DNA of 64,000 nucleotides from Mya arenaria (Eukaryota; Mollusca; Bivalvia; Myida; Myidae). Below, piece by piece: positions 5,405 through 63,203 of the stretch (its first letter is position 1; every line of letters begins with the position of its first letter). The DNA is taken from the NCBI RefSeq assembly GCF_026914265.1, contig NC_069129.1:74842049-74906048 (forward strand), in the 5' to 3' direction. The notes under the pieces were generated by a model, which was not told the origin of the DNA, searched no databases, and worked only from the letters and a program-made list of their open reading frames with translations. The position numbers and the translations under genes are program-made.

Positions 5405-5548
5405 CTGCAATTAAATAAACATGTTGATGTTCGCACTAAAACAAAGCTTAGTATTGAGTAAAATTAAACATTCAGCCTGTTGGCTGGGGTAACATATATA
5501 AATCCCCAAATGGATGATCAGCGAAACACGAATTCTATTGCGTGTCCA

Positions 5549-5571
5549 GGGGGGGGGGGGGGGGGGGGGGG
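5549..5571. repeat. Poly-G tract
   Basis: An uninterrupted run of about 22 G. Its counterpart in the right arm is a poly-C run near 39205-39225, so the tract predates the arm duplication. Confidence 0.8.
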
Positions 5572-14940: not shown

Positions 14941-14943
14941 TAG

Positions 14944-14977
<34 letters not shown>

Positions 14978-14981
14978 ATAC
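14941..14981. repeat. (TA)n microsatellite at inner edge of left arm
   Basis: An imperfect TA run, interrupted by 'ttta'. It is the last sequence shared with the right arm, whose matching run is at 33776-33855. Confidence 0.9.
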
Positions 14982-14989
14982 ATAATTGG

Positions 14990-20572: not shown

Positions 20573-22537
20573 TATAAATACAATTTACTAGAAACGTCAC
20601 TCACCGACCAGTAGATGGAGCAAGACAAACAACGAGCGGTTATAATTTTACCATGATTGAAAGAAGCTTAAGGTTTAATAGATATAATCGCTACTCAAGT
20701 AATCTTTAAAGTAAAATAAATCAGCGGATGGTTCTGGATATAGTGCCGGTGATAATATTCGATTAACTTATGGCAAGGCTACTCTAATTCGTAGATAAAA
20801 GTTTAAAAAAAATGGAAAACATGATTAGGCAGCCAGCGAAGAGTCACAACAAAGGCTTTAAGTACCTAGAATGACCAGTCAAGACGACAGTGATGTTTTA
20901 TACAATTTAACCACCAAACAGATCATTCTTGAAGGACAGGAAACTAAAATGATACAACCAATTCAATCGCAATTAAGTTTACAGATTACACTGATGATAA
21001 TTATATTTTCAGAGATGATTGTGCTGATGCCAGTTGCATTGTTGTGAATAAGCTGGTACTGTGGATTCCCAGACTGTTAAATAATATTTCATATGTTATG
21101 ACAAATATGTTATGACTGTTACAGTGAACATAACTACTCGAAATGTTGCTAGAAGCACAAAGAAGCAGGCAAGTAGAATCATCATTCAGCATTACAGCAG
21201 ATATTGAAAGTTCTACACAAAGTTTTATTAATCTACAAAGAACAGATAAAAGCTACAACCAAAAGCCAATTATTCAACGATAAATACTAAAATGTCAACC
21301 TGGAGCAGACTACAAGGTATTTACACTTATAATATACGAAGAAAAGGTGAGCAATGATACAGTTTGAATTGAACTTGTCATTTGAAAAAAAAAAAAAAAA
21401 AAAAACAAACTAATACAACACCTTTAACGGATGACAAAAAGTAATTTTTGACAAAAGAATAAAACACAAAAAACAATAACTCTTAGATTAAACTTGACAG
21501 GAAACGTTTCACTTACATTAAAGTGACGCTCTTATTTAAAATCAATACATACACATGTGTAACAAACATCAATTTTGACTGATTAACCTATATAACCGTG
21601 TATTTAATTGCAGAAATCGCGATTTTTTTTTAAATGATTGGTGAATGGCCAAAGACTTACTGTGCTTTACTATAGTTTCATAAGGTAGAAATATTGTGTT
21701 TTATGCGCATTTCTTTCGAATTAAACTCGTTTTTCTTCATCAGAATCATTGTTTTTAACATCTATTCATCCTGTTTTTTATAATATTAGAACAATTACAT
21801 TAATTATAGTTCATCTGATTTGGGAGTAAGAGTACATCTTTAACGGATACCAAAATTAATAAACTAAACAAATTTAAGAGGAATCTAACTGTGGTAGGCT
21901 TGAAACCTATTTAAAGTCACATAGAAGTGTTTGTTTTGTTCGTAACATATCAACCACGTTACAAGTGCATGTTAATGATACCTTTTCTCAAAGATGCACT
22001 CTTACTCCCAAATTTACCACAGTTAATTTATTTGTTTAAATGTACTGAAAAGGATGAAGATATTGAAAACAGTGGTTCTAATGAAGGATTCTGTGCTAAA
22101 TTTGAAAAAAGGTGCGTAAGACACGATATGTCAACCTTATGAGACGATAGTTGAACACTATAAATCTTTTAGCACTAACCAGTTAATTAATATTTGTGAA
22201 TTTTCAGCTATTAAAGATGGTAACGATATTGTTATTAGTTAATAATATTTTCTATAAAAGCTTTATATTGTAAGTACATTAGTATGTTTTGATTTTGATA
22301 AGAGTGTAAGATTAATGCTTATCGCTAAAGCGCAATTTCTTGTCAATATGTCTAGTTTCTAAAATAGGCGTTCGAGAATGGATAAATGTAATGTAAACTA
22401 GTATGTATACTATACAACACTGCGTCATATTCGACTAAACAGGATCTTTATGGAAAGTCATACGATACTTTTCATCGTGTCATCAAATACCTTACTCATG
22501 TATGCACTAATTTGAATACATATATAATGCGTTTAAC
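20573..22537. other. Intergenic stretch upstream of the GT11 gene
   Basis: AT-rich sequence containing a 20-bp poly-A run near 21388 and two loosely related segments starting 'ctttaacgga' (about 21422 and 21838) that look like worn dispersed repeats. No coding frame with recognisable content. The promoter of the GT11 gene presumably lies near 22400-22530, but I cannot point to a specific element. Confidence 0.4.
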
Positions 22538-25500: not shown

Positions 25501-27298
25501 TTATACAAACATATACATATATATTTGTTACAAACAAAATCAAAGAAAAAGATTCAAGATTGTTTGGTCATTAATATATTTTACAAATGTCGCATGAAGT
25601 TTAATAATCTTATGAATTTGCAAAGTGGTTGGATGCAGCATTAAATAAATGGAATTCTTCAAGAAATGACATTCCACATAGGAGATATAAAATCAAGTAC
25701 ACTTATAATATGTGTCTGTATTGAATCAGTGGCGTTTGCTTACATATATTCTAAATTTCAGCAATAATTCAGTTTAAAATATAACAATGGACCCCCAGCT
25801 TTAATCAACAAATACATGGAATACTGAAACAATGGTACATATTAGATTAAAGATATGAATTATTGATCACTTTAATGAAAATTAATTCTATGAAACTCAG
25901 TGCATCATTTCTATGATTCGGGATCATAATGCACCAGTCGATTGTAACCACTGCCCCTAACCCCTCGTCCCGTACCGGGGGTATACCAGGGACAGCGGGT
26001 GCAATGAGCCGTGTTTTAACTTCCAGGTTGGCCCCGAAGTGCCTGCAGTGGTTTTGTTATCACTCCGAAAATAGTGGGACATGGGCCTTACCTAGGTATC
26101 CCGGTGTGCGGGGGCATTTGGCATGGATTTTACCAGCAGTTTTTCCCTGAATGTCCTGTATTTTACACAGGAATGGATGGACCGTAAGTTAAAGTCCCCG
26201 CTATTCCGGACTAAGGGGGGAGAGGCATATACAATTGGCTGGTGCATTAAATCACTGACCATAAAAGTTCTCTGCACACACCCTTGTTCTTTTTGTTTTG
26301 ATAAGCACATGCCATTGCATTTCCTGTGATAAAACAAAACAAAACTTAGTCTAGAAATTCAAAATTAATGTATATGGAGTCTACTGTTTGATGATGCCTG
26401 TGTGAAACATATTTTTTTACACATCAAAAATCAATAAGTACGTCTACATACAGTTGCAAATGATATTAAAGTGATTCGGGTAGATTTATAGAAGTCGTTT
26501 CTAACTTTTTCCTGAAAAGAGGGTTATTTTTTATTATAAACGATCGTCATATTAAAAGTATTTTTCGCTCTTCGCTCGCTTCGGGTTTAATGAAAACTGG
26601 CAATTTTTTTTTCGGTGGCTCGCTCGCTCCAATTATTTTGGGCAAAGATCCGTGTAACGAAACATTAATTGGGTGTGGCCTTAAGGTCGACATTGACTAG
26701 AAAACAATAAGACCTCTTCGGCGAAACAAAATGACATTTCATCTTTATAACGATATTCGTTTTTCCCGATCTCACAAAAGGCATACCATTTCATTGATGC
26801 ATCCAAGTTTGTGTTAGCTTCCTAATCATAGCTAATACAACTGTCTAAACTATTTTGAAAACTATTTGCAATATTATAGGCGCAGTTAATGTGTGTGTGC
26901 ACGTTCGAAGAGGCGATATGGCAAAAGATGCTAACATCAAACTAGGTTATGTTCCGTCGGACGCAACTTACCTAAATAGATCTATGGAATACTTCAGAAA
27001 TATGTTCCGAAAGAAGACAGTCCACTTTGTTGTCATCAGCAATGGTATGGAATGGTGCCAGAATAATACGTCAGGGCCTGACGTCTTTTACTCTCCTTTT
27101 AAAGAAGCTGTCCTAGACTTTGCACTCATGGTTTGTTGTGATCACGTGATTATTACCATCGGGACATTTGGTTGGTGGGGGGCTTGGCTATCTGGTGGAA
27201 TAACCGTGTATGACTCCTCGTGGCCAACACAATATACATTTGTTGGTAAAGGCTTAAACAGAAGTGATTATTATCCAAAACACTGGATAGGTCTATAA
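22538..27298 (+). CDS. GT11-family fucosyltransferase (alpha-1,2-fucosyltransferase-like), two exons
   Basis: Exons: 22538..23336 and 26880..27298, with a 3543-bp phase-1 intron (ACAG/GTACAA ... ATTATAG/GC). They total 1218 bp, or 405 aa. Residues 5-23 are a hydrophobic signal anchor, so it is a type II Golgi-like membrane protein. A Cys- and Asn-rich stem spans about 30-140. The catalytic domain starts at GPQGRAGNIMFE (148-158), a variant of the GG-R-x-GNQMFQ motif of GT11 enzymes. The donor-binding motif HVRRGD is at 274-279, HFVVISN follows, and GTFGWWGAWLSGG (361-373) is the conserved C-terminal motif. The family transfers fucose from GDP-fucose to galactose in alpha-1,2 linkage. The acceptor here is unknown. 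The gene sits in the loop of the giant inverted repeat, its intron holds an ISL2EU-type MITE, and a possible AATAAA lies at about 27371. The frame looks intact. Confidence 0.85.
23765..23930. repeat. Second GGTAA/TTACC-rich block inside GT11 intron
   Basis: It resembles 2860-3015: outer 'ttgtacaaacaggtttaccc', then alternating GGTAA and TTACC units. It is followed by 'caagatggccgacc', which opens only five codons before a stop. Probably one end of a Harbinger-like element. I could not place the other end. Confidence 0.4.
25929..26247. mobile_element. ISL2EU-type MITE, uninterrupted copy
   Basis: It is 319 bp with inverted ends ATGCACCAGTCGATTGTAA and TACAATTGGCTGGTGCAT. The internal sequence matches the outer parts of the nested copies in both arms of the inverted repeat. 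It encodes nothing. It lies in the GT11 intron. The shared ends make the element at 53302-60088, or a relative, the likely source of transposase. Confidence 0.8.
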
Positions 27299-33010: not shown

Positions 33011-33034
33011 TGTACACCGTTGTGTTCTTGTATT

Positions 33035-33595
33035 ATTGGATGCATGTCATAACAGGGGACCCATGAGGGCAATTGTAGAAGGGGATGTATGTCATTACAG
33101 GGTAATCAAAGGGGGTTGTACTGTGACAGGGGATGTATGTCATAACAGGGGACTCAAGAGGGAGTTTCTTGTGAGAGTGGATGCATCTCATAACAGGGGA
33201 CTCAAGAGGGAGTTTGTTGTGAGAGTGGATGCATGTCATAGCAGTAGACGCAATCGGGAGTTTGCTGTGAGAGGGGGTGTATGTCATAACAGGGGACTCA
33301 AGATGGCAATTGTAGAAGGGGGTGTATGTCATTTTAGTAGACTCGAGTAGGGTTATACTGTAAGAGGGAATGTATGTCATAACAGGGTACTCAAGAGGAA
33401 AATTGTAGAGATGTATGTCATAGCAGTAGACTCGATGGAGATTATGCTGAGAGGTGATGTATGTCATAACAGGGGACGCAAGGGGATTATGCTGAGAGGT
33501 GATGTATGTCATAACAGGGAAAGCAAGGGGATTATGCTGGGAGATGATGTATGTCACAACAGGGGACGCAAGGGGATTGTGCTGTGAGAGGGGAT
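33035..33595. repeat. Minisatellite, 45/48-bp unit, about 12 copies
   Basis: The core 'gatgtatgtcataacagggg' recurs about every 45 or 48 bp, with intermediate 'actcaagagggagttt...gtgagag' segments. Copies near the right edge are shorter. Because units are multiples of three, long open frames appear on both strands (134 codons plus, 202 codons minus). Neither has another sign of being a gene. Confidence 0.9.
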
Positions 33596-33775: not shown

Positions 33776-33853
<78 letters not shown>

Positions 33854-33855
33854 AC
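33776..33855. repeat. (TA)n microsatellite at inner edge of right arm
   Basis: About 80 bp of TA with one 'ttta' interruption. It marks the inner junction of the inverted repeat and is about twice as long as its left-arm partner. Confidence 0.95.
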
Positions 33856-34051
33856 TACAGATATTAAGGTGACCATATATATATTAATTTAGGCATTATG
33901 GGGACCGCTGGATTAAGGCGACAAAAATTGGTCTCCTTAATATTTTCAGTCCAGATTTGATGTATCAAATGTCAATTAAAATGTCCATTGACAGTAAGTT
34001 GATAAGCTTGAATGTTTATTTACGAGATCATTTCATTGTTTTAAATCTTAA

Positions 34052-35060
34052 AGTTGTAAAGTGCCTTTTTATGGGTTTTTTACTTATTAAAAAACACCGC
34101 ACTTTGTGAGTTCGTTTATTTTCAAATCATTCACATTCTATATTAAAAGTTAATATTTATAGGACAAATATAATGTCTTTCAACGAGTAACTCAGTTTGT
34201 ATTTTATATATAAACTGCAATGTAAAGCTCGTCCTGAAATTAACAATAAACAATTGTAAGAACATTTTCCATGCATATCAACTGTTATTTTAGCAAATAA
34301 ACAATATGCATACACTCCAAAATCCTTGTTAAAAATACACATTACTTTTAACACCGGATGTACGCATGACACATGATGTACACATGACACCTTAAATATT
34401 TACAAATAACACATTATATAATCACAGTACAAATGTCTGTTCATTCACATTTCATTGACTGTCCATTCACATTTTCTTGAACTTACAAACAAAGCCTTGT
34501 TTGTCAGTCTTTGCACAATAATATTAAATGCCAAACAGTGTGGTTTCAACACTTTAAATATGATAAACAAAAATACAAACACTTACAGAATATGTGGTAT
34601 TCTAGACAAACAGTTCTGCCATATATGATATATCACACGACCCGCTCACTGCAACGGTAGCCTGTTAAAAACGACCATGCAAATAACAGTACCTGTCAAA
34701 AGTGACAAACAATGAATCTAGGAAAGATTCATTAAATATTCTAGCAGCCCTTGTAAATTTTGAGTGAAACGAATTTCCAAATATAGTGTCGAAAGAAATA
34801 TAAAAATACAAGAAATAAGAAAGTGTCCCGACAAACTAATATTACGTACACGTAGAATAAAGTCTAAAGTATCCACCTACCTAATATCTATCAGTAACTT
34901 CAATCTAACATCTCGATTACTCCAGATTTTCAAACCAACTAAAATATCTTCCTAGCGGCTTCCTTATAAACTACAAATACTCTCCAAGGGAGATCATTAC
35001 TATTTAAGTCTATCTAAATAATTTACCGACAAGTATAGGTTACCTTACACTATTACTTGT
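34052..35060. mobile_element. About 1-kb insertion unique to right arm, class unknown
   Basis: The left arm reads continuously 'aaatcttattctctt' (reverse complement), whereas here about 1.0 kb separates 'aaatctta' from 'attctcttt'. The insert has no recognisable coding, no clear inverted ends and only a doubtful short TTA repeat at its edges. It may be a nonautonomous element, or it may have been lost by deletion in the left arm. Confidence 0.5.
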
Positions 35061-35922
35061 CACCTAGTTACATTCTCTTTAAATATTAAAAAAAAATTAT
35101 TAAACTTTTGTGTGAGTATATTTGTGTATCCATAAAAATAGCTATTAAGGCGACCAGGGAAAATCATAATTTTGGTCAAAAATAGCTATATACTAAGCAT
35201 TTTTTATTTGTTTTACTTTATTTAAAGCCTATTGTATATTATCCCGAAGTTTCATTCCATAAAAAACAGAAATGAGGAAATTCGATATTTCGTGTACCAT
35301 CAGCATCCAAATTTTCAAGTATACAGAAATTTAACTTTCCGGAATATAACGGAAATTTTCGGGTATCTCCGTGGTATCATCTCCGTGCAATTATGCAGTA
35401 TGGCGTTCATCTCTTACGGAAAGAGAATGGTAACTTGGTAAGTGTTTAAAATACATATTCAACGTTTTTTTCGTTTATTTTTATGACTTTTGTACAGTAG
35501 TATAAATCGTCCACCCTTTGGATGAAAAGCAAATGATTTATCCGGATTTTGTTCATCCGAAACTAAATCACTACTATCAACATCCGGTGTAATTTTTGCT
35601 TGTATTTTGGAGAAACTCGATTGATTTCTAGCAAACTTGGTTTACCACTACATCGTCGCTTATTATTATTTGGTATGTTCCAATCTAAAAAGTGATTTGC
35701 TCCCTTAACATCTCAGATTTTAATCAATAAAAGACGAAAGGATACAAATGCCTTACATTTTGTTTGTCAATGTCATGTCATTAGTCATTCTCATCACCTT
35801 TGAATAGCAGAAGAGAACGAACACTATCACCAATTCGTATTGGGGCTTTTTGCATGTGTCTTAAATTCTCATATTTGATAATAAATGCAACAATAAAATA
35901 TTTCCCTTATTCTGCCACAGTT

Positions 35923-37387
35923 ATGCACCAGTCAATTGTAACCATGGCCCCCAGGTCTTGTTTATACCGGGGATAGCAGGGGAAATGGGCCATGTTTTTA
36001 CCTTCCAGGTGGACCGGCAGTGCTGAGTGAATGCGGTGTTATTGTTTTTGCGCTGAAAACAGGGAATGGGCCTAACCTAGGATGTCCCCAGGGGCATTTG
36101 ACGGGGATCTGGTCATTTCGTAACCTTACCATTTCGTAACTGCTAAATCTTGGTTATTTTGTAACCATTTTGTAAGTCAATTCGTAACCGTCAAGTAATC
36201 AATTGCTCATATGGTAACCACCATTTAACAAGGTGATAAATAGTACACTTAGCACCTCGTTAAGTGTATTGTTCGAACCTGGATGTATATGGCACAGCAA
36301 CCAAGACACCAATTGGGAGACATTACTCAAATTCTCACTAGTAACAAGCCAATAATTTATGTTACTCAATAGTAATTAGGTATATATATATCATGCTAAA
36401 TTAGAAATGATTTGTTATATTACCAAAATATGTTAATTATTTTCTTCATTTTGCTTACTTATAAACAATAATTAAAGACTGATCGCGATGTATTTTTGAG
36501 TAATATTACGTTTACATAAATGATCGTTCTTGACCTATTTCATTGACTATATTTGTTTGAATTGTTTAAAACGAACAAAATTTTGTTCTGTTCTTTTCTC
36601 AGTTGATCCATATTCTGCATACTCAATATCCGAAACCGACAAAAAACAGCCTTAAATTATTAGTTATGGTATTAATTTCCAATGACAAGATACAAAATTA
36701 AACATATCAGCACATTTTTAATACAATAAGCATATAAAAAGCGCATACTCTCATTCGGCAAACTCACTTCATTTTACAATACTTCATTGCAATTTAAAAA
36801 AAAATGAAATTCTAAAGTTATATGGTCTATATATTTAAAAAATATTGGCTTAGGGTCACAATTCCTCTCAATGGTAGAACATCTATGAATTAAAAAATTA
36901 TTACATTTACCGGTAATATTCAGCCTGCTTATAATATTTCCTTCGCAACATAAAAAATAGCTAGTGTGAATGTTTCTATTTGTCATAGTTTCAGAGTTTA
37001 TTGGCAAATCGCACTACACTATTAGGAATAAAGAAGGAATACAACTACTAGATTTAACTTTGTTTATGTTGTTATTTTTATGTTTTATACTTACAGTAAA
37101 CTTATTTTGTAAATTCAAATGGTATTAAATTAATTCCTCATAATTATAGGAGTCAACGGTTAAGATATGACCATTCGATTTCTTAACGGTTACGAATTGA
37201 CTAACACAATGGTTACGAAATGACCAACAATGAGCGATTACGAAATGATCATAATTCATTTGACAGGGCTTTTACCAGCTGTTTGTCTGTGCAGAGCGGG
37301 ATTTTACCTGGGATTGGCTGGACCGAAAGTCAAAGTCCCCGCTATTAGCAGGACCTTGGGGGCCCATGCTGCAATTGACTGTTGCAT
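35923..37387. mobile_element. ISL2EU-type MITE (right arm copy) with nested MULE-like element
   Basis: The ends are ATGCACCAGTCAATTGTA and CAATTGACTGTTGCAT. Outer segments match 25929-26247. The interior 36107-37256 is a separate element. Same structure as 10083-13985 without the LINE. Confidence 0.85.
36107..37256. mobile_element. MULE-like nonautonomous element (right arm)
   Basis: 1150 bp flanked by CATTTGACGGGG and CATTTGACAGGG, an 11-12 bp target duplication within the MITE. The uninterrupted MITE has 'catttggcatgg' at that point. The terminal inverted repeats of about 100 bp are made of repeated 'tcatttcgtaacc' and 'tcaattcgtaaccgt' units. A B-box-like 'ggttcgaac' lies in the interior (minus strand, near 36270). 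No transposase is encoded. Mutator-like affinity rests on duplication length and long ends only. Confidence 0.65.
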
Positions 37388-39680
37388 TATTTGGATTTTT
37401 TCTTAACTTTACGACACGCCCCCCTACAGTATTTTATAGTCAAGTTTAGTAATATTTATTTACAGAAATTGGATAACTTAACAAGTAAAGTAAACTGTAC
37501 TGAGTTTTTGAACAAACCTACATACTTATAAATCAAAATTGATATTTTAGGGTCTACACTGAATAAACCCAAAATGTTAGTTTTGATTTGCTAAATTCGA
37601 ACAGTATTTAGTCTATCCACACAAAATTTATAGGATCATCAGATAACAAATTTTCTAAAAATTCTCTGTTTGCCAAATAGGGTTTAAGTGGGGTTAAAAG
37701 GTTGCTATCTGTGACCAAAAAATACTGTTCAAAATTGTGAGTATTCATTTATCTTTCGTTCAGTAAAGAGCATGCAATGGCATAGTGGTTGGATTAGATA
37801 ATCTGACAGCGGTGCTGGACATCAGGAGTTCAAATATTGTTGTGAGTTCAATGTACCAAAAGAATTCCTTTGGAATACACAATTATCTTTAAAAATGGCA
37901 GAGCAAATTGCCCATATTGTAGTAATGTCTTAGATCCAGCTTGGATAACTTGGACACAGTAAGCGGTTCACACCCAGGGAAATTCTCAGATAAAACAGCG
38001 CCTATAAACTTGATCATTACATTTTTCATTGAGACAATTAAAGAAAAAAACATTATTGCTGATCTTCTGAAAACAAATCTTCTAACATTCAAATATTTAA
38101 TTTGTTAGATGAACTAAGGTTTATATTGATAAGATATTGCTTCAGTTGGTTTTAAACTTATCACCAACAAAAATATATGCATTTAAATCACACAATGTAA
38201 ACAACTGCGCCACAGATCTTATCTGCAGATTTGGGTTTTTAAAATTTAGCAGTTAAATATAGATTAGCATACTGTTGCTTTAGTTGCTAAGTAAACATAA
38301 TGTCAGTGATTTCATCACTATTTCTATTAAAATATCAGTTTTCTTCTTCAGGGCTTCTCACATTTGCACCATTTTTTACCATTTGAATCATAAAAAGATA
38401 ACAAACACAAGAACTTAACACTTTGTGAATATTTAAGGAATGTAAGGGGTCAGATTTCAGATTGCTCATTATTTCTGGAACACTAAATACTTTATTTGAT
38501 TGTGTACACTGCACTTTCTTGTTAAGCATTCATCCAAATAATTTGGGTAAATTTTGGCAGAAAAACTGCTTTTGGATTTATACTGGTCATCAAAACCGGC
38601 ACTGACAAAACATAAGACGTGTTTAATTAATGTGCGGGAAAGAAGTTTAAAGGTGTCGGCCCACAACGAAAGGCTTGCGGGTTGCAGTACCCCTTCAAGT
38701 AGTTCTTGAAAAAAATGATTCTCTCAGGTAGCATTTGAGTATGTGTACATTGAATTATTGTATGTATTTTCAAGTTTACACATGATTTATATAAGGTTTG
38801 TATAATTTTAGTTTTATTTAAGTTTTAAAATTTTGATTTTTTTTTAAGATTTGCCTGCCCCTGTCTGAACACTTAAATTCTTGGTCTTTGGACTATTGTC
38901 TGCAACTTCAAAACACACTTTGGAACAGGACACATTTTCCTGATATTTTATCCAGTTTGACTGCAATATAAGTTGTATTTATCAATAATTTAAGTAAAAA
39001 ATGACATTTATATTTCCATAATTACCTGGTAGTTATTTGTTAATTTGTTTGAATTCATGGATAGGTTTATTGCGAGTGTCATGGAAAGCTGGAACTTTTC
39101 AGTATACAACATGCAAACTGAGAATGAACTGTGTGTGCCGGCTTTGTGAACAAAAACGCAAGGTGGCTTTGGTAAGTTGCGTCAAGATATCCTTGGGACC
39201 CCAGCCCCCCCCCCCCCCCCCCCCCTGGACACGCAATACAATTCGTGTTTCGCTGATCTGTTGGCTGGGATAATATCATCCATTTAGGGATTAAGAAATG
39301 TTACCCCAGCCACCAGGCTGAATGTTTAACCGTCATCAAACACTCTGCCATGAATGTGAGAGAGTTTAAAGTTATTTCTTATTTTCCTGTGTAACTATAT
39401 TGATGTTTGATTAAATTTACGCCGTCGTGTTACTAAGTAACAAATTGAAATTGGGCCAAAATCATCAAGCTAGAACTTTGCATAATCTTTTTCAAACTTC
39501 TGGGAGATATCTGCCCTTGAAAGTATTCGCTCGCAGCCCGCATCAAAGTTCACTTCGTTTAGTATTTAAAGCTTTCGGATACACTTTTTTGTTAATTTGA
39601 GATCTTAATGACGCTACATTGTACTTCTAAGTAAATAGATGCTCAAAGTAACAAGATGCTCTGGGTGTTCACTGGGTGAC
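37388..39680. other. Noncoding portion of right arm
   Basis: Mirror of 4965-6570 and 9279-10082. It holds the poly-C run at about 39205-39225 and the empty site of the hAT insert near 38195. Short open frames are disrupted in the partner arm, and I see no gene. Confidence 0.6.
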
Positions 39681-40008
39681 ATTTAAGGCTACCCAGTATT
39701 GGTTGTTTCTTTTTTCTGAAAAGATGTTTCTAGTGAATTGTCAAGTTGCAGTGGTTTTGACGCCACAGAACCAGCACAGCTCCATGACAGATATATATGT
39801 TTTCGTCATTGATGTCAGTACTGCTGTATTGGTGGCCTCACAATTTCTGTGTGGAAATGTCATCTGATACACTCATAACGGAGTATTTCTAGCATAGCTT
39901 TCATAAGTGCATGGCCATTCTCTGTCATTTTCAGATACACTGTGTTGTGTGTGGATAAGAAATGCAGAGTGGTACCACCAATCACCTAAGCCACCATTCC
40001 CCTAACAG

Positions 40009-42533
40009 ACACAAGGCTCATGGGGACAGTTCCTGCAGTTTACAGCAAAGCTCTCAATTGTAGCCCTACAAACTTCAGGTAAGTGATAAATCTGGGCTTC
40101 AAGATATCTCTGTACTCACTTTAAGTTTATACTTCATTTGAACAAAACGTATAATTTCAGCATCAAAATCCAGGTTTAGATCCCAGACCGAACCTTGTCT
40201 CCTTTATTAAACTTCATTTCAGATGATCTTTAAGCCACATACATGTTCACTACATATGGCGGATAAGAACTTTCGCAAATTGATTATAAATGCGTTTTCC
40301 CAGATATACACCCTCCTCTTGCAGATACTGCCCATGGTGAAGCATGGGTGCACTAGGCCGGTTATCCAGCCGTGTGGAATCAATATCTCCAGCTGAACTT
40401 GGGCCGGGAATTATATAAGAATCCTTAGCAGCATGGTGAGCTTTTGTGTATTTATTTTCAGGCTCGTATACCCGTCCAGACTTCTGCGTTTAAGCTTTCC
40501 TTTCGTCATTTTTTTAAATAAGTTATCTCGAGTCTTTCAATGATATCACAACTTTGGAGGCTAGATTTAAATTAAGGAACCATTATGTGTAGAAAGCCTT
40601 TTGGGTGATTTAAAATCAAATTAGTAAACAGGATTCTCATGGTTCATGGTTTATAATTGGCCTTGTGGACCTTTCATTCTTTACTTTGGTAAGAGCCGCT
40701 TAAGTATGTAAGAAGGGGGAAGGGGGTGGGGTACAGATGTGATAGTAAACAGTGTTTAATAAGGTATATTTGTTTTTATTTTATCACCATTTTGAAGGTA
40801 ATGATTGTGTTAAATCAGGGATAAATAAAAAGTTTAACACAAACACTGTAACATGTTCTTTATTTCAAATAAAGCTATAAATTATCTCTGGAGAATTTAG
40901 TCTGATCTCCATTTCTCAGAAAATGTAGCTGTCTAAGTGCCTATTCCATCAATGAGTATCACTGTCTTTAAATTGCTGTTGTGGTACAGTTTAAATAGCA
41001 AAAGTTTTATGGCCCTGCTTGTTTGCAACTCCTCATTCATTTTTGTACAGCGAGAAAAGTAAGGGAATTCTAGCGATTTACTAGAATTATGGATTGTTTT
41101 TCTTGAGTTACACAGTACATAAGGAGGAATTAGTGTGTACACAACTCCTCATTTTATTCCTGTTTATTATTTATATATGTAACATAGATGTGTACAAGAC
41201 TTATGGTACTGTAGAAACATGACATAAAAGAGCTCACTTTGATTAATTTTCTCAAAATAAGATATCTTTACTGTTAAAGTAAGAACTTTTACTGCATAGT
41301 AAGTAATGTCTTCTGCTCATCTTTATGACATCATTACATGGAATGATGTCAACGTCCCAAGACACATTTTCACATGGCGCAGCTCATTTATATATATTGC
41401 TGATGGATTGTTTAGAATGGGACAGTTTTAATTGGACATAATGTTTTAATTGCCATTTTACAGAGTGCCAGCCAGTCATTGATGTTCTTTGCATTGCTGA
41501 GGAGGACAGTCCTGCCAACATAACAGTTTGTTCAATAACAGGTAAAAAACTGGGCTCACTTTACATTTTCAACCACTGTTCGATCGTAACAATTATCAAA
41601 GAACCGGCTAGTCTCAATCATGCAGCCGCTCTAATTAGAGTCAATGAACGATATAGATCCGGATACAAGCGTCTAGATGATCGAGACTAAATTGGCAACA
41701 TGAGAACATTTATTTCATTTCTTGATTCTTGAAAATTACGTGAACAAATGACAATTCTACTACCATTTAAAATTTGATTAATTTTCGGACAAATGTGTTT
41801 GTTTTAATTTGCCTTCCGCTTAAAGTAAACGTATATATACTGGGCAAGAAGTGCTGAATTTCATCGTGAATGACAGTGATTATCCAAAGTTTGAATTTGG
41901 TCCGGACATGTTTGACGGGAATTCAAAGACATTTTTTGTCAGCCGTCTTATATCACAGGTTTCCATGCATTTTCGCATACATTGGTTCATTCCAAGATTA
42001 TTATAACCTTTTTCAAAACGTTCAATCTGTGAGAGTGCAGCTTTAATAGACCTGTAAAGACTTGTCGATGTGAAACTTAACTCTCAATCAAACTATGGTG
42101 AAAGATCAAATGCGGGGCTCCGTGTGCGGCATAGACTGCTAATTTTTATTTAATATTATGAAGTGCTAGTTAAGTTATCTTTTTTAAAAGTCTTCATTTG
42201 AAGCAAAAAAATGTTTCAATACCCTGTATGAATTTTCTTCACCGGATATTGATTCATAAAAAACATTGCTCCAGGGTGCGGAGCTGTATGTCTATATGGA
42301 AAAATCTTCTCCTCAGAAGTCAACTTTGTTCCCCAATGTGCAAGGCACAATCGGTGAAAATAATTTCAGTAAAAGTCACTGATTATTATTATTGTGATTA
42401 TTATTAATACACTTTTACTATTTCAGGAGACAAACAGAAACACAGAGGTGCTATGCATTCCGATGGAAAAGACAACAAAAGCATCTCCCATCATTTCGGC
42501 GTGGCTCAGATCAAGAGGAGAATTTTAAGAAAG
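40009..42533 (+). other. Candidate exons of an unrecognised gene (right arm copy and beyond)
   Basis: Exons with good splice signals are 40009-40078, 41464-41541 (acceptor 'cattttacag', donor AACAG/GTAAAA) and 42427-42533 (acceptor 'actatttcag', donor GAAAG/GTAATA). The last two join in phase 1 and stay open: ECQPVIDVLCIAEEDSPANI, then GDKQKHRGAMHSDGKDNKSI and FGVAQIKRRILRK. The first two are conserved in length and boundaries in the left arm. The product is not recognised. The exons may lead into the DUF7869-like stretch at 43417. Confidence 0.45.
41960..42045. repeat. MITE end (TTAAAGCTGCACTC family)
   Basis: It ends 'aatctgtgagagtgcagctttaa', the reverse complement of the start of the copies at 44265 and 45028. 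The opposite end was not found, so the copy is partial. Confidence 0.5.
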
Positions 42534-53260: not shown

Positions 53261-53644
53261 ATTCACTAAAGGCTTCGAGTTGGGTTGGTGAAGCTGGCAT
53301 TTATGCACCAGTCAATTGTAACCACGGCCCCCAGGTCCGGGGACTAGCGGGGACTTTGACTTTCTGACAAGCCAACCCCGGCTAAAATCCGAATAAATGG
53401 TAAAATCCCTGCCAAATGCCCCCGCAACCCAGGGACTCTTTGTAAGGCCCATTCCCCACTATATTTTGCGCGAAGACATAACCACCGCATTCATCCGGCA
53501 CTGCGGGGCCACCTGAAAGGTAAAAAAACACGGCCCTTTTCTCCGGCTATCCCCGGTATTGTCCTTTCCGATAACTTGGTTACTTCCCCTGATTTCTAAG
53601 GGAGGCTACTCCATTTCCTACTTCCGGGGAATACATTTTGCAAG

Positions 53645-56202
53645 ATGGCCGACGTAGACAATGAGATCACTGGGGCGTGTATGAATAACAATGAGTTGAC
53701 ACCATTTAAGGTCGTCGATTTGAAAAGATACCTTGCGAACCGGAAATTGAATGTATCAGGTCTTAAATGCGAATTGATTGAGAGGATAAAAGGCGCATAT
53801 AGACTTTCTATAACTGACAAACGCGTGCTGGAGGAGAGAGATCGGGAAGAAAGAGAGAGAAGAGCAACCGAACGCTTTATCCTCCCATGTGGCGAGGGTC
53901 TTCCACCGCCATCAACACTGAAGGCATGGAAGTCCACTATTGATCTGTTTCCTGCTGTAGAGGAAAAGGATATATACAACTACATTGTACTGAAAAGAGA
54001 CTCGAAACGTCAATTGAAGGCGAGGACTTATTATGTGGACGGACATGTACAGAAAGTTGAGGTATGTCAAATAGTGAGTTTATAATAAGTCTGAGGCTGT
54101 TTTTTCTGCCATGTTTACTTCATCTAGTTATATAATTAGCTCAAGGGGACTATTTTGACTTGGACATAAAAATAATTTGGTGTGAAAAATGTACTCAACA
54201 TTTTTATGTAGGCGGGGCTAGCCACAATTAAGGGGGGTGTGGTGGATGCAAGCACATGTATGTGTCGAACCACACTGACTATATACTTATCTTAATTTTA
54301 AAAAAAATAATGTATTTTGTACAATTTTCATATGTTCTATGATGTATGTTGTTTATTTATTGTCATTTAAATTAAAATATTATTTATAATTTATTCTTCA
54401 GGTCCATCTCATAAGCGAAGAGTGCAGCCACTGTTATGTTCAAGCTTCCGTGCTGCCATCATTTCCAACTGCAGACAAAAGAAAGTCACCAGAGTACCAA
54501 CCCTGGATCCTTCTGTCGAAAGTGACTGGCTGCATACACTCCGCGTTCTGCAATTGTCCAGCTGGGTAAGTTGAATTAATTTGTGATAAATCAAAGTCTC
54601 TGATCTGCATTGATGAAAGGTGTCAAACCCACACACGCTAGGCTATTTTGTCAGTATTATCAAATACTTAAACTTGGGGCATTCTTCAAACTATTTCATA
54701 TCTTCTTATCAAACTTGGTACACTTGTTACAAGAGACAAAAAAGCACATGTTATAACTGTCATAATTTTGGCTTTCATGGTTAGCTGAGTTTTGCTATTT
54801 TTTTCTGAATGAAAGAACAGGCGAGCTTATGTATTGATTCAATGAACTCCCTTCACCGTGTTGGTGTTTACTTATGGCACTGTTTGTGTTTTGTATGTTC
54901 ATGGCCTACCAGGAAATACTAAGTGTAAAATACTGTGTATTCACCTCCATTTTCAAACTTTAATGTTTTGGAATATACATGTAAGTATAACAAGTAAAAA
55001 GGCACACATGTAAATGAATTTTTTTATTTTCATCTAGTGAAGGTGAATGCTGCAACCATATTGGTGCCCTGCTGTATGGACTTGAAGACCTGACGCGTAA
55101 AAAAACCCTTGCTCCAACATCCAAACCCTGTGCCTGGAACAACTTCAGCATGCTGTCTGCACCACGGAAACGTAAGCTGTCGCCTAGGAAATCTGAAGAT
55201 CTTATGTTCTCAAAGAAGAAACTGTACAACGTGTCAGTACGTAAAGTTTCTGTAAACAAAAACCATGAACTGAACTCTATCAATGGATGCACTGTTAACA
55301 TTGACAGATTTAGGCAGAAACTGGTTGGTTCGAAGTTGAATGTAGGCTGGTTAAAAAACTTTGAAATTGAAACAACTGAAAATGAACCAGATCTCCCTGT
55401 GTTACATTCTGTGCCATTCAACTACCATGATAGTGTAAACTTGAGGGACAGTTCTAGTAAGACAGTGTTTTTGGATCATTTTGACTCTTTGAAGCAAAGC
55501 GCTGAAGAAATTCAATTAACTGAAATCTTAACAAGGGGCCAAAAAAGTGGGAAATGGCAAGAGGCCAGAAAAGAACGCCTAACAGCTTCAAACTTTGGCA
55601 GCATCTGTCGTAGGAAAGAATCAACTGAACCTGACGGACTCCTGCGGCAGATGTTGTATTCCAATTTCACAAGCAAGTACACAGAATATGGAATTAAACA
55701 TGAGAAGGCTGCAAAGAGAATGTATGCGAAAGCAATGCAAACTGACCACAAAGGACTAGCAGTTAAAGACAGTGGTCTAGTTGTATGTGCCGACAGACCC
55801 TACCTTGGTGCCAGTCCAGATGGGCTTGTGTTCTGTTCACATTGTACAGAAAGTGTTGGTCTGGTTGAGATTAAGTGTCCTGCCTCTAAGAAATGGAGGA
55901 TGCAAACGCCTGAGGAATGCTGTGAAGACAATGATTTTTTTTGTCAGTTAGAGAATGGCAAGGTGTTACTCAAGGAAACACACAAATATTACTACCAGGT
56001 CCAAGGGCAGATGGGAATCACCGGGAGGAAATGGTGTGATTTTGTAGTTTGGACATGTGTAGGTCTTTCTATACAGAGAATTGCATTTTGTGAATCATTT
56101 TGGCTGAAAATGTTGTGTCAACTTGACAGATTTTGCCTTGAATCATACATTCCTGAACTGTACGCACAACGTGTTAAAAGGGGAATGAGTCTGTTCAATT
56201 GA
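53645..56202 (+). CDS. SAP-SWIM-YqaJ exonuclease-like protein of ISL2EU transposon, three exons
   Basis: Exons: 53645..54061, 54402..54565 and 55038..56202, total 1746 bp, 581 aa. Junctions are GAG/GTATGT...CTTCAG and CTGG/GTAAGT...CATCTAG, in phase. The start ATG follows 'caag' and opens MADVDNE. Residues about 19-50 form a SAP helix pair (TPFKVVDLKRYLANRKLNV) that would bind DNA. A charged coiled stretch covers about 58-75 (EERDREERERR). A SWIM zinc finger is C189-x-C191 ... C199-x-H201. A YqaJ/lambda-exonuclease fold spans about 365-550, with E416 (GIKHEKAA), D455 (GASPDG) and E471-x-K473 (VEIKCP) as the PD-(D/E)xK metal site. The family degrades or recombines DNA ends, and its role in transposition is unknown. 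AATAAA is at about 56363. Intact frame. Confidence 0.85.
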
Positions 56203-56802
56203 TTTGTACTTCGTCTAGTTATGTGTTGTTTATACATGTACATTTGAATGATCAATAATGGCAATTTATGTGAATATCTTGTTTGCTTTCAGTTATTTTC
56301 ATAACTATATTCAAAATGAAACTCCAAAATGACTGTATTGTTACTATAATTTGAAACCATGAATAAAAAAGTTGTAAATCTAAATTTTGGGCAGTATTTT
56401 GAAAGTATGTGTACTTTTGTCAACATATTGTGATTATGCGATGCTGTAAATCTACTTTAATTATTTCCTTGTTTTATGTTTGACCTTTTCTACTTTTCCT
56501 TTCCATTTATCTAGTTTTCAGGGATGTATTTCTGAGCTTAATAAATGGACATATGTTTAACCTTTCAAGTGTGTTATTATTGCATTTTGTGTGCAGGATA
56601 GTGATAGCGTTTATATTGCCATTGTTTAAAGAAGTAGCTGAGTTTTACTCTAAAACAATTGAAGATGTTCAATTGAATATTGGTTTGCATGTAGCTACTG
56701 CACGGCCCATAACTCAAGACTGTCGAGTTGTTCTCCTTTTCTGACTTGCTAATTAAAAACAACAAATGAGTGTTACTTTCTTATGTTTGCAGGGTGCAAA
56801 AC

Positions 56803-57306
56803 TTAAAGGGGCTATACACCGTGTGATGAAATATCGAAAAAAAAAAGAAACTTGTCAAAAACTGACATAAACTTGGTATCAATGTGTACAATGCATTGAA
56901 ACTAACTAACTGAAGTACCACATACCGTAGTATACAATTAATTTATTTTCGCATTATTTTTTCCATATTTCTCCATTAATTTTTTTTTACTGGGTATGTA
57001 TACCTAGTAGAATTCATTCTTATGCGTGATTTGCTAGTTGATGATATCATGGGATATAACCAAGTAAGGTATATTAGCTTAAGCATTCATATGGTTTCGG
57101 ATAAGCCTTCGTAGCAAAGTGGATACAACACTGGACAGCTATTTTGGTGACACTAGTTCAATCCATAGCTCAATTTTCTTTTACATTTTGGTATTTCTTT
57201 ACCATTATCATATCAGAAGAGTAAAACATTTTATTAAATAATTTGTCCTGAGATTTGTTACAGAAAAAAACTTTATTGGTGCCAATCTGGTGTACAGTCC
57301 CTTTAA
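56803..57306. mobile_element. MITE with TTAAAGGG ends and SINE-like core, inside ISL2EU element
   Basis: 504 bp with inverted ends TTAAAGGGGCTATACACC and GGTGTACAGTCCCTTTAA. The middle has an A-box-like 'tagcaaagtggatacaac' and a B-box-like 'agttcaatcc' about 45 bp later, as in a tRNA-derived SINE. It lies between the 3' ends of the two transposon genes, harming neither. Whether it is a MITE holding a SINE or one chimeric repeat is unclear. Confidence 0.6.
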
Positions 57307-57903
57307 ACATTGGGACATATTTAGCATGGGGCTAGTTTTTTTAATCTAATGTATCTTAAAGTTAACATTTGTCGGGCATTTCAGTTTGATCTATGGCACT
57401 CTTGCCTATTCTTATTTCCACTTAGTTCAATTATGAAACTGATATGAAAATGGTTCATACTGAAAAATCCTTTAAGCAATTCAATACTAATGATTTGAAG
57501 TACGTGGTAGATCAATTACACATGGCAAATAAAAAAAAACTCATTTCAGAGCCAAACTTAATAAGTGATCTTTGACTTTTATTCTTAGAAATGTTACAAA
57601 TAATAAAACCACAAAATACAAAGCAGATGTTTCACAAACAAAAAATTATATCAATAAATTGATCAGTTAATGCATACATGTTTCAAATCAAATCTTGAAA
57701 TCCATTCACATGAGCATATTTCCTTATCCATTTTTGTCAAACCTGAATCAAATGTGTAATCTCATATGTTATCATATAACTTGCTCGAAAAAATGATTTT
57801 AAAACAAAATTGTAATTTCATTGTTCTAGTTAGAAGTATACAAGTTTTTATCCCTAAATCTAATGCTTGATATATACAAACGCTTTCATTGACACATGAG
57901 TTA

Positions 57904-59920
57904 TTATTGAACAAGTGGTGGCCATAGATTTGTCAAATATGTGCATATTTTGAACACTTTAGAAATTCTCCTTGACTGTGTTATAGGAATATTGCCATGC
58001 AATATTCGAAAGTTCTTGATTCTCTCCATTTGCCTTTCAACATGTATTCGTAAACTTGCAATATCTTTTGTAAGGAGAACCTCACGTTTAGAGAATTGTT
58101 TTCCTTTCTGTTTAAATGGTGGAATAATGAGATGAATGCCTCTTGGAGTAGTAAGGTCTGTAATAGTGAAACCCTTATCAACCATTATGGCGTCTCCTTC
58201 TTCAAGCAAGTCCAAGAGTCCACATTTTTCTGTGAGTTTCTTGTCACTGGTACAGCCCACCCAACAGTCAGAAACAAAAGTTACAACACCATTTGGGCTT
58301 ATACCCACCAAAATCTTATGAGTCATGTGAGACTTGTAATCACTGTACATTAAACTTTTCAAAGAAAGAGAACTGGATGTTTCACTGTAAATTTCAGTGC
58401 AGTCGATAATAATTCTAGTGTTAGAATATTTCTCTTTAAATTGTTCAGGCATGTTATTTTTCACTACCTCACGAGATGGCCATTGAACAAGAAAGGATAA
58501 TTGTACATGTAAATAGTTGATCCATCTTTCAACAATGTCATTACATTGTGAAGTGGATATGCAAAACCTAGTACCTAGATCTTCAAATAACAGACCTAGA
58601 CGTAGGCGCATCAGCACCATGAAAAATTCATCCAGAACACTTAGAGTTCTTGGCCGTCCTCCATCTGAATCTTTATAGTTAAGTTTCCGCCTTGATGTCC
58701 GCACTTCAGCTTCATCCTTGATTTCATCAAACAAAGCTTCAAACACAACTCGATTAGGGATTCCGGTGTAAAAACTGACCAAATCGTCATTGTATTTTAC
58801 GTCATCATATGTGAGCATAGGTAGCTGACATTGTACACCAAAGTCTCTAGTAGAATGTTCTGTTTGTGAACTGAAGTCTGCTGTTTTTCCCAGGAAACTT
58901 TCTTCAGTTTGTACTTCCATCACTGCACAGTTGTTCTCAGTCTGTGTGTCACAACATCTGAAACATATACAAATTGATCATGTACCCATTTACCACATCT
59001 TACATGTACAGTCTGGTAACCCTAACCAAATGTTTGTTTTTTTGGCCTTAAACATTTACAAACACTTAAATTTTCCTATTTTTGTTAAAGAATGAAGAAA
59101 AATGATCAGAAGTAATTAACTTATCAGATCGATTTCATAGCACAAGAAGCAATATATATATATATTGAACAATACCTAAAGGACTGATTCTGTGGCTGTA
59201 GTACTGGTCCCATGCAGTAATCATGCAGGTGGACAGAGGTATCAATGGCATGCCCGGAAGGGGATACAAATGACAGTTGTGGCTGTATACTATCATCATT
59301 TGACAGTTCTAGGTCTAAATCGTCATTGACCGTATCACCATCATCATCATCACCTACGTCTTCATCAAGGAGCTGAAATTGCAAATGAAACTGTATAAGA
59401 TAAATGTTTTAGTACAAAATCTGCCAGGCTATATGGTACACATTTTTCCAGGCTGTATTTGAAAACAATTCTTTAATCATTTCTTAAATTACAAAATTTA
59501 CAAATAAGTGCTGTGACATTGTTTTTAAGCACCGTTGATATAACATAATTCATTTTGAGGTGCATGTAAGGAAGAACTTAAACTAATATAAGAAATAAAA
59601 AATACCGTTGGCTGGAAGGTTTTGGTAGCACCAGTCTCAGTTGGAAACATAGATGGAAGTGTATGCTGGAATGAAGGTCCTCTGAAGCCAACAAAATGCT
59701 CACTACACAATCGTCTGTGTTCATTCCACTGGAACGATCTCATGACCGTTTTACATCGCTGCACCCACACACGTTTTAAACGTTTGTTCTGAGGAAAACG
59801 GTGCAATGACACTTTTCTCCCATCAATAACCTTTCCTCTGTAAATTCCTTTACAAATACAACAGTACTTAGGGGTTTTCCTGCCCGTTTTCTTTATTAGT
59901 TTTGAATCTTTACTTTCCAT
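57904..59920 (-). CDS. THAP-DDE transposase of ISL2EU transposon, three exons
   Basis: Exons: complement(57904..58957, 59176..59372, 59606..59920), total 1566 bp, 521 aa. Introns GTATTT...TTTCAG and GTATTG...TTTCAG are in phase. The ATG at 59920 (MESKDSKLIKK) is chosen because upstream codons have no other ATG before the transposon end. Residues about 19-98 are a THAP zinc finger: C20-x2-C23, then C-x2-H in RLCSEHF, closing LPSMFP. It would bind the transposon ends. Residues 106-170 are acidic. A helix-turn-helix (Tnp_4 type) lies near 272-320 (GGRPRTLSVLDEFFMVLMRL). A DDE_Tnp_4 nuclease carries D356 (IIIDCTE), D431 (IMVDKGF) and E478 (HVERQMERIK). It is nuclear and performs cut-and-paste. 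AATAAA (minus) lies at about 57579. All catalytic residues are present and the frame is intact. Confidence 0.9.
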
Positions 59921-60138
59921 TTTCACTTGTTGCTGTTTACTTCCTGGTTTGTGTAGTCCCCGGAAGTAAATTTCCGCTTTTTGCGCATGCCCACTTGAAG
60001 AGTATTCAGGGAAAGATAATCGAGTTATCGGAAAGGACAATACCCCTGGACCGGGGGGTGGTGTGGGGGTACAATTGACTGGTGCATTACACTAAATTAT
60101 GTTGGGGGGGGGTACAATTGACTAGTGCATAATTTGTT

Positions 60139-61325: not shown

Positions 61326-63203
61326 TTATGTATAATCAAATCTGTTCTGTTTTGTTCTATTGTTGTCGGAATTTGAAATAAATAGAAGGTCTTCTTTAAG
61401 CATAATATTTCCCAGGTAGAACCAGCTGTTTTCCGCAGGGGGGTTGTACAACTGGAGCTCAATTTGAGGGCGGATCTCGCGGCGCCCCTCATCACTAAAC
61501 AACGCGTACACAACCTGCTGATCGGTATTCATCAGACGCCTGCTTAGGAAATAATCCACGGCTTTTTTCAGCTGGGTTTCGTATCGAAGAATGATATCCC
61601 TATTAGCAAACACTAGACCACCGCCGACCCAAACTAGATTATTTCGGAATATATTTGTCACTGACATAGCCATGTGTGTATTCGCGTGGATTACATTCAT
61701 AGCTACACGACTTTCATTGAAGCCGTTCGGCCTACTTAGTGAAAATTTGTTGATTGACTTTCTATCTCTGAAGTATCCAACGTCTAACCACATAACATAA
61801 TTCGTCTTGAACACGTGGTCGCGTGAAGCACGGGATATGACATCATATTTTGCGAGCTGTGCGCATGCGTATTCGGGTAAAACTGTATTAGGATAGTGGG
61901 TAGGGTATCCTTTTTGAGAAAATACTTTTGATATATTACTTTGCAGCTGAAATGCCCAAGATGAGTTTCTTTTAATCAGATGAATTCGTGTTGTGTTGAC
62001 AGTTTCATTTCTTATGTTCTTCATTAAATAATAGAACTTCTGTGAATCGGTGTATACTGTTAATGGGTTCAGCAAATATCTGAATATTTTGCACCAATTG
62101 AAGTAGTTCTCGGTAGAGAAATTGCCAGCAAAGCCTTTTCTAAATGTTCCAAGATCAAAATAGGCCGTGACAACGGTGACATCGTACTTACGGCTAGAAG
62201 TACCGTTCCCTATCAAAATCTGCGTATGAATAAATTTCCTGTCATAATGTGGTGGTATATCTTTGGACGCCCTTAATTCTGTTGCTTTGCTGATGGTTTT
62301 GTCTGTGTAATGAAGAACCCGTCCAAACTGAAGACATACAGCAAAATAAAAGAACAACTACACAATGAAGTGCGTACACAATGTGCATGAAACATTCAAT
62401 TTATTACAGTAATGAAACGCTAACTCCTATAAACATTTCTGAGAAAACTCAGTGGCTATCTCTTATCCTTATTAATTACGAGTTTTGTAAATTGGTTGCA
62501 ACCTTTTGGAGCCTTCATTATATTCTGTTTAAACAAATGATTCTGTCTTTCTTAGGAATACATCACTCCAATGACAACTGTAGAAACATACTGAACGTGT
62601 CTGGTAAGTAATGAAGCATCAGTCGCCCGAATAAGGCAATGCTTTGCAAATTCCATTGAAAAATATATAAATGCCCAATCTACACGAGATGCATTTTCAG
62701 ATGTATATTTATACGATAGCTCGTGTACAATTAACATACAATGGTTTGATAAAAAGAGCTCATAAAAGAAATATTTAAATCAGTTTAACTAGCCAAAATT
62801 TATTTGACATATACTTTAACATGTATATCATCAATTTAAAACATTGCCTTAGACATTTAAGGAAATATGACAGATTAAAAGTTACTCTATACTTAAGGAT
62901 TGATCGCATTTTTGTCTTGCATTCATGGCTGTATGAACAAATACAATATGAACGTCAAGTGTTATCTATACAAAGGGCTAGGCGAGTGCAAATATGTCAA
63001 TATGAACCAAAATGAATGATTTATATAAACGTATAGGGTAAAAATGAGCTTAAGTCACCAAGCAACTGTAAACATACCTTGAAAATACTTACTCCTAAGT
63101 CCATGTTATTCCTGAGAACCAGCATACAACAACAACTCACAACAACTAAAACAAATCGAGATAAGGACATCCGACCAAGTCTCCGTATCACTACCCGTAC
63201 CAT
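61326..63203 (-). CDS. HtrL/YibB-family protein, membrane-anchored, two exons
   Basis: Exons: complement(61326..62327, 63078..63203), total 1128 bp, 375 aa. The intron GTATGT...GTCTTCAG is phase 0. Exon 1 encodes a short basic start and a hydrophobic anchor at about residues 14-30 (FVLVVVSCCCMLVL), so it is likely a type II membrane protein of the Golgi or ER. Exon 2 begins FGRVLHYTDKT. The HtrL_YibB domain covers about residues 90-345: VTVVTAYFDLG, NYFNWCKIFRYL, LTVYTDSQKF, then NYVMWLDVGYFRD with a metal-site-like acidic motif, and NTDQQVVYALF near the end. The family was first named from a bacterial protein in an LPS gene region and resembles glycosyltransferases. The reaction is unknown. 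The frame is intact, with no transposon features inside. Next to it are only the ISL2EU element (downstream) and the window end. Function beyond membership in the family is inference. Confidence 0.8.

Follow-up and report, generated by a model that had tools for sequence, protein, structure and literature searches.

A full-length, apparently young ISL2EU transposon nested inside an unrelated MITE in Mya arenaria

Within the window, the whole stretch of 64,000 nucleotides of Mya arenaria DNA analysed here (contig NC_069129.1, positions 74,842,049 to 74,906,048), one segment has matching outer ends and encloses two convergent genes, raising the question of whether the ends and the genes belong to the same mobile element and how recently that element moved. 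The original prediction read the segment as one ISL2EU-type transposon running from 53302 to 60088. The outer ends are instead those of an older, unrelated MITE, and the real transposon is nested inside it (Table 1). The interval 53560-60039 is, with high confidence, a full-length, young and autonomous ISL2EU (PHIS) copy whose insertion, at a T|AT|A site within a PIF/Harbinger-type MITE already present there, duplicated the AT.

Table 1. Coordinates of the nested elements and their genes (window positions)
Feature	Position	Strand	Basis
Left TSD (TTA) of outer PIF/Harbinger-type MITE	53301..53303	.	Sequence; matching TWA duplication in 22/24 paired MITE copies
Outer MITE, left part (TIR TGCACCAGTCAATTG...)	53304..53557	+	39/40 scored genome places match only here, ~85% identity; empty sites
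Left AT TSD of ISL2EU element; target T|AT|A	53558..53559	.	Copies' flanks, empty sites
ISL2EU transposon, 6480 bp	53560..60039	+	21 full-length genome matches including the window; ends and flanks of 20
Left TIR of ISL2EU element, TGTCCTTTCCGATAACT, exact 17 bp; inward similarity diverged	53560..53576	+	
Gene A exon 1: start codon, SAP domain (residues 21-53)	53645..54061	+	Gene model, Pfam
Gene A exon 2	54402..54565	+	GT-AG introns on both sides
Gene A exon 3: YqaJ exonuclease domain (residues 366-524), stop	55038..56202	+	Pfam; acceptor position in relative L133
Gene B exon 3: HTH_Tnp_4 (275-325), DDE_Tnp_4 (355-514), stop at 57904	57904..58957	-	Motifs, Pfam
Gene B exon 2	59176..59372	-	Gene model
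Gene B exon 1: THAP domain (residues 20-76)	59606..59920	-	Gene model, Pfam
Right TIR of ISL2EU element	60023..60039	-	
Right AT TSD of ISL2EU element	60040..60041	.	Copies' flanks, empty sites
Outer MITE, right part	60042..60086	+	Junction without insert aligned in 29/29 fetched MITE loci
Right TSD (TTA) of outer MITE	60087..60089	.	Sequence; TWA duplications in paired MITE copies

The boundaries of the inner element are given by its other copies. A search of the same genome with the interval 53562-60040 scored 21 of 4054 candidates, and these 21 places, the window among them, match over the full length or one base short of it at about 100% identity. Twenty fetched copies are each 6480 bp long, begin with TGTCCTTTCC (53560 in the window), finish with GGAAAGGACA (60039) and differ from the majority sequence by 0-3 bases, three being identical. 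Because these full-length copies stop at the inner TIR in flanks that are all different, the outer ends are not the transposon's, and the extent first assigned to it gives way to 53560-60039. The exact left end occurs at 65 places and the exact right end at 71, with none for the backward controls; they form 60 pairs, of which 53 span 6425-6484 bp. Adding L041 and L045, in which the flanking T is lost, brings the near-full-length copies whose ends are exact to at least 55, and 27 of these depart from 6480 bp through small indels. The copies are spread over contigs C1 to C17, and the 60 left flanks read are 60 different sequences. The TIR plus flanking T, an 18-mer, is found at 165 places (backward control 0), compared with 136 longer exact ends, and inspection by eye of the first 100 of the 165 listed places, exact matches only, revealed no inward-facing pair of MITE size that would belong to the inner family.

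The recent activity that the original prediction thought possible is thereby strongly supported, and its statement that few such copies stay intact is contradicted here by the open state of both frames in 19 of the 20 copies read. These are the best matches and not a random sample, and the intact fraction is biased upward because only best-matching copies were read and 27 of the 55 near-full-length copies carry indels. Very recent mobility of the family is strongly supported at the sequence level, since the copies number dozens, differ by 0-3 bases per 6480 bp and lie in different flanks; the family is perhaps still mobile now. Decayed copies with stops are also present (73-97% identity for gene A), and together with relatives at 52-61% identity they show, as judged from sequence, that the lineage is a long-standing resident. 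The decayed copies would also suit a family that went extinct after a short burst long past, the identity of its copies being due to gene conversion or assembly polishing; a published assembly resembling this genome was polished with linked short reads, and polishing might inflate the likeness among repeats. Private substitutions and small indels nevertheless persist from copy to copy and are not erased, and the dispersal over C1 to C17 with no left flank shared among 60 also counts against extinction, which is unlikely.

The outer ends have a separate origin. The outer 18-mer inverted repeat is exact at both sides, so that the matching ends of the original prediction are real, but they are the ends of the MITE and not of the transposon. 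With up to 3 mismatches allowed, this 18-mer has nine sites in the window, where 0.18 would be expected. In a genome search with a piece starting at 53303, for which 40 scored places were considered, 39 are MITE matches to the first 257 bp and the remaining place is the window itself. When the flanks of the window insertion are joined, they align across the insertion point in all 29 fetched MITE loci (L007 and L026 being the same copy) with about 82-87% identity over the junction of the rejoined halves, and they align through it in two window MITEs as well; the exact sequence GGTATACC stands at the insertion point in 22 of the 29. Five of these loci were not paired, and the other 24 copies carry target site duplications of TAA/TAA in 15 cases, TTA/TTA in seven and differing triplets in two (AAA/TAA, TTA/TAA); a TWA duplication is found in 18 of 20 once copies with the same flank are counted once. 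Judged by this TWA duplication, the outer MITE belongs to PIF/Harbinger. The AT proposed as the duplication at the outer ends is accordingly replaced by TWA, and the window MITEs, which have other TIRs, are not explained by the element; the empty-site alignments instead identify one of them as the target into which it landed.

Taken without the other copies, the left end of the transposon looks chimeric, as if the left part of the MITE had been captured through recombination and the window copy now moved with it. The full-length copies and the empty sites point to nested insertion instead, and capture is very improbable: both MITE halves flank the element in order with one AT duplicated, the rejoined halves align in every fetched locus, and no chimeric end occurs elsewhere among the 40 scored places. 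The alternative that the whole of 53302 to 60088 is a single ISL2EU element, which duplicated AT, has long ends that are asymmetric and is parent to the same-ended MITEs, would account for the exact 18-bp outer repeats and the AT at both outer ends. It is scarcely credible when the 20 fetched copies all stop at the inner TIR with different flanks, 39 of 40 scored places match the first 257 bp only, and the MITEs contain the empty site and, in 22 of 24 paired cases, have the same triplet (TAA or TTA) duplicated at their two ends.

The gene content of the nested transposon agrees with the original prediction in every part. Both genes are open with the predicted junctions (54061/54402, 54565/55038, 59606/59372, 59176/58957), they are convergent, and all four introns are of the GT...AG type. 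Gene A encodes 581 amino acids with SAP and YqaJ domains (YqaJ, PF09588, E 3.1e-17); its third exon, whose acceptor position is the same in the 53% relative L133, completes a SWIM-like CxC-x7-CxH motif recognized by reading and without a Pfam hit. Residues E416, D455, E471 and K473 sit in the expected motifs, the YqaJ motif aligns at E 8.2e-6 with 3syy, the chain of an exonuclease, and two of two relatives (52-61% identity), nearly identical to each other, keep the catalytic residues. Gene B encodes 521 amino acids and matches PF05485, PF13613 and PF13359 (THAP, HTH_Tnp_4 and DDE_Tnp_4), each above the curated cut-off, with D356, D431 and E478 in the expected motifs and kept in three of three relatives (52-61% identity, two of the three alike). 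One relative on C13 carries both genes, likewise convergent. The substitution S310N in the helix-turn-helix is private to the window copy, the other 19 copies and all three distant relatives having S, and it may affect the capacity of the window copy itself to move. A search of viral contigs for relatives of protein B found none, and a structure model of the transposase alone was unusable (pLDDT 32.9).

The likely mechanism is cut-and-paste chemistry, in which the gene B protein, with its DNA-binding THAP and HTH domains, would bind the TIR TGTCCTTTCCGATAACT and then excise the element. Its RNase-H-like DDE domain would carry out strand transfer, joining the element to a target cut in staggered fashion at W|AT|W, and the 2-bp AT duplication would result from gap fill. 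A SAP DNA-binding domain, a SWIM-like zinc motif and a YqaJ exonuclease are combined in the gene A protein, which probably processes the ends of DNA, either at the target or at the gap left in the donor; to our knowledge, nobody has shown a role for the ISL2EU exonuclease in transposition.

Of 60 insertion sites, 58 are flanked by AT to the left and to the right, although for 40 of the 60 the inner T was part of the search pattern. Copies found without a flank requirement have AT/AT in 18 of 20, L041 and L045 lacking AT on one side. The 58 sites comprise 27 T|AT|A, 15 A|AT|A, eight T|AT|T, six A|AT|T and two others, such that 56 are W|AT|W, and about six per target class are expected from the window background; A|AT|T is not enriched. 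Among the 18 AT/AT copies found without a flank requirement, the respective numbers are nine, two, six and one. Furthermore, two head-to-tail tandem pairs with spacers of 2 and 3 bases occur, against an expectation of about 0.00006 under a simple random model. Duplication of one 13-kb unit is unsupported as their source, the lengths differing and the upstream copies falling into different score classes; the pairs hint either that the element passes through a circular intermediate with joined ends or that it targets the palindrome which its own TIR and TSD make up. It is a tentative and rather doubtful proposal that the family is mobile in the host population today, prefers T|AT|A over A|AT|T and is capable of inserting next to, or within, its own copies. 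DNA transposons are reportedly amplified in the transmissible cancer of Mya arenaria, and this family may be among them.

A nested insertion can be mistaken for one element with the wrong ends, of which this locus is an example. Because its near-identical copies number dozens, many with open frames, and its insertion sites are clean, this family allows direct tests of whether the exonuclease is needed, of the target rule and of mobility at the present day. A 2022 paper describes ISL2EU transcripts in fish, and its authors knew of no reported proof of activity (PMC9179366). ISL2EU activity as such is not new: a 2021 study of mutation-accumulation lines in Daphnia records a single gain and a single loss of ISL2EU (PMC8594854).

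Judged by anatomy, that is, gene content and AT duplication, the inner element is ISL2EU and represents a new, unusually young member of this known group, an assignment that takes TSD and gene content as defining and the target as a variant trait, so that a stricter reader may disagree. It shares with the ISL2EU group of the PHIS superfamily the AT duplication, a THAP, HTH and DDE transposase, a second ORF with a YqaJ exonuclease domain, a short TIR and an animal host. Published ISL2EU elements have TIRs of 6-259 bp that usually start with GG, an average length of about 4840 bp, and a target given as A|AT|T, first inferred from flanks and later supported by empty sites (Han et al. 2015, PMC4482050), whereas the present TIR (17 bp exact) starts with TG, the element is 6480 bp long and the family's preferred target is T|AT|A. 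PIF/Harbinger transposases fall within the same published superfamily (PHIS), but the inner element differs from that group in its 2-bp AT duplication and in carrying a YqaJ gene and not Myb/SANT. Spy, also of this superfamily and placed as the sister of ISL2EU in the published tree, inserts in AAATTT without a TSD, whereas the element described here duplicates AT (PMC11304231, PMC4482050).

The 6480-bp ISL2EU transposon at 53560-60039 was wrongly delimited in the original prediction, which described a single element at 53302-60088 with a possible AT duplication at its outer ends. When 53303-53680 was compared with the animal's own genome (1,216,080,610 bases in 18 contigs), the sole full match was the window itself, and in the 39 others of the 40 places scored the match covered approximately bases 1-257 only, at 84-87% identity; 53562-60040 matched 21 places at about 100% identity, at full length or one base short. 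All 20 fetched full-length copies start with TGTCCTTTCCGATAACTTGG and finish with ...AGTTATCGGAAAGGACA in differing flanks, and the transposon limits are therefore set at these inner ends, where copies elsewhere stop. The terminal inverted repeat is exact for 17 bp and continues inward as diverged similarity, with an alignment score of 29 versus at most 14 across 200 shuffles. The outer 18-mer ATGCACCAGTCAATTGTA is a genuine repeat, with nine window sites at up to three mismatches against 0.18 expected, but does not form the transposon's ends as had been proposed.

Taking out the element together with one AT leaves two flanks that make up a MITE, in which the transposon is nested. The rejoined flanks align across the unfilled insertion point in all 29 fetched MITE loci and in two window MITEs, and the insertion-point sequence is exactly GGTATACC in 22 of the 29, which are not all independent (L007 and L026 are one copy, and some loci have common flanks). 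The family duplication is 3 bp, being TAA/TAA in 15, TTA/TTA in seven and differing in two of 24 copies paired by script (five of the 29 were unpaired), and it matches in 18 of 20 when each flank is counted once. The AT formerly read as a duplication overlaps the 3-bp TTA of this MITE. PMC4482050 gives the TWA duplication as the signature of PIF/Harbinger, a feature that the outer MITE family shares. A second window MITE with matching ends lacks an insert and is approximately 73% like the transposon-hosting MITE over the aligned part. A further Harbinger-MITE-type right end, which terminates 43 bp past the end of the outer MITE and precedes a long TA repeat, is probably a remnant. On contig C4 (~42.098-42.101 Mb), three Harbinger-type MITEs (L026, L007, L028) with the same flanks and a spacing of about 970 bp probably arose by tandem duplication.

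Features of the window
Feature	Position	Strand	Detail
Gene A exons	53645-54061, 54402-54565, 55038-56202	+	581 aa
Gene B exons	59920-59606, 59372-59176, 58957-57904	-	521 aa
Outer MITE duplication	53301-53303 and 60087-60089		TTA
Second MITE	25929-26247		flanked by TAA and TTA
Further right end	60101-60130		
Inverted segmental duplication	3105-14984 and 33811-41569		pieces 87-97% identical
MITE-like elements	10083-13986 and 35922-37389		
One-arm insertion	6570-9278		ORF 6811-8748
One-arm insertion	10555-13057		669-aa ORF, 10546-12552
Glycosyltransferase family 11 gene pieces	22511-27295		match for 26849-27295
Tandem repeat array	33025-33595		minus strand open for 205 aa
HtrL_YibB frame	61329-62357	-	E 8.5e-14

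The two genes stand as originally described, with GT...AG borders in all four introns and the named catalytic residues in place. Gene A carries the Pfam domains SAP and YqaJ, and gene B carries THAP, HTH_Tnp_4 and DDE_Tnp_4. The YqaJ block of gene A (GASPDG...EIKCP...YxxQxQ) aligns with exonuclease chain 3syy (E 8.2e-6), and its intron 2 splits a CxC-x7-CxH motif, without a Pfam match, that is completed on splicing and that we take to be SWIM-like. A 53% YqaJ relative (L133) has its splice acceptor at the same codon as gene A and retains E416, D455, E471 and K473, as does the nearly identical L134. L133 adjoins the transposase relative L135 on contig C13 in the convergent arrangement of the window element's genes, and a TTTCAG acceptor of L135 falls where gene B has its own. 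D356, D431 and E478 are retained in all three transposase relatives compared, two of which resemble each other.

The genome search for near-identical copies suggested in the original prediction yielded at least 55 near-full-length copies. Exact matches number 65 for the 34-base left end and 71 for the 36-base right end, with none for backward controls; these ends pair 60 times within 14 kb, and 53 pairs span 6425-6484 bp, 26 of them precisely 6480. The other two copies, L041 and L045, escaped one end pattern through loss of a flanking T, and one near-full-length copy (C13:9135735) lies within a nested, rearranged locus. The 20 copies read base by base show 0-3 differences each from their majority (24 per 129,600 bases): none in three mutually identical copies, one in eleven, two in five and three, the highest, in the window copy. 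At animal substitution rates, which range from 1e-9 to 1e-8 per site per year, the 20 copies would be some tens of thousands to less than two hundred thousand years old, a lower bound for the family because they are the best matches. The 23 variable sites comprise 12 non-coding, four silent and seven protein-changing, one to a stop. Neither frame is interrupted in 19 of the 20; L045 has a stop in gene B. By hand count, the exon-3 part is uninterrupted in 50 places for gene A (98-99% identity; 75 scored of 757 candidates) and in 62 for gene B (99-100%; 83 of 804). More diverged copies of the family, many with stops (73-97% for A, 89-98% for B), and other lineages at 52-61% identity are also present, and the lineage is therefore resident rather than a first arrival. 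Three changes are private to the window copy relative to the other 19, including S310N in the helix-turn-helix, where those 19 and all three relatives have S; this copy has open frames but uncertain activity. Taken together, the inner element is a known kind of transposon that is strikingly young, and a good candidate for testing ISL2EU movement and the role of the ISL2EU exonuclease.

Elsewhere in the window, the MITE-like elements within the two arms of a large inverted segmental duplication look like one insertion copied with it, and are therefore not independent events. Two insertions are confined to one arm, with empty sites in the other; the ORF in the one at 6570-9278 has a hAT dimerisation match, and that in the one at 10555-13057 is a reverse-transcriptase ORF. 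The long open HtrL_YibB frame matches a family that is bacterial in the Pfam description, here in an animal-like genome. The upstream glycosyltransferase piece was recognized by reading only, and the repeat array has degenerate units.

Two head-to-tail copy pairs, with spacers AT (C2) and AAT (C7), were found, against 0.00006 adjacent pairs expected under a simple model with site density as in the window. At one locus a copy starts 669 bp inside another, at ACA|AT|TGTCC. The element may have targeted itself or re-inserted locally, or these arrangements may reflect a joined-end intermediate or a fault in the assembly.

No description of the 6480-bp family was found in the consulted portions of PMC4482050, PMC9179366, PMC8594854, PMC11304231, PMC10294476 and PMC10663159. 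As PMC10294476 reports 58 PIF-Harbinger consensus elements for bivalves and does not mention ISL2EU, the family may be listed there as PIF-Harbinger. According to PMC10663159, DNA transposons account for 8 of 45 repeats amplified in Mya arenaria transmissible cancer. AT lies on both sides in 58 of 60 insertion sites. T|AT|A is the most frequent context, with 27 sites, followed by A|AT|A with 15, T|AT|T with 8 and A|AT|T with 6, and two sites have other contexts; about six are expected per W|AT|W type from AT contexts of this window only. In 40 of the 60 rows the search patterns for the ends required the inner T on both sides and placed no constraint on the outer bases. Two A|AT|T rows (C13:9135066 and C13:9135735) have one common right flank, and removing one gives 5 of 57. 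Among the 18 AT/AT copies found without a flank requirement, T|AT|A accounts for nine, T|AT|T for six, A|AT|A for two and A|AT|T for one. Whereas the ISL2EU target given by Han et al. (PMC4482050) is A|AT|T, that context is not enriched here and the inner element favours T|AT|A.
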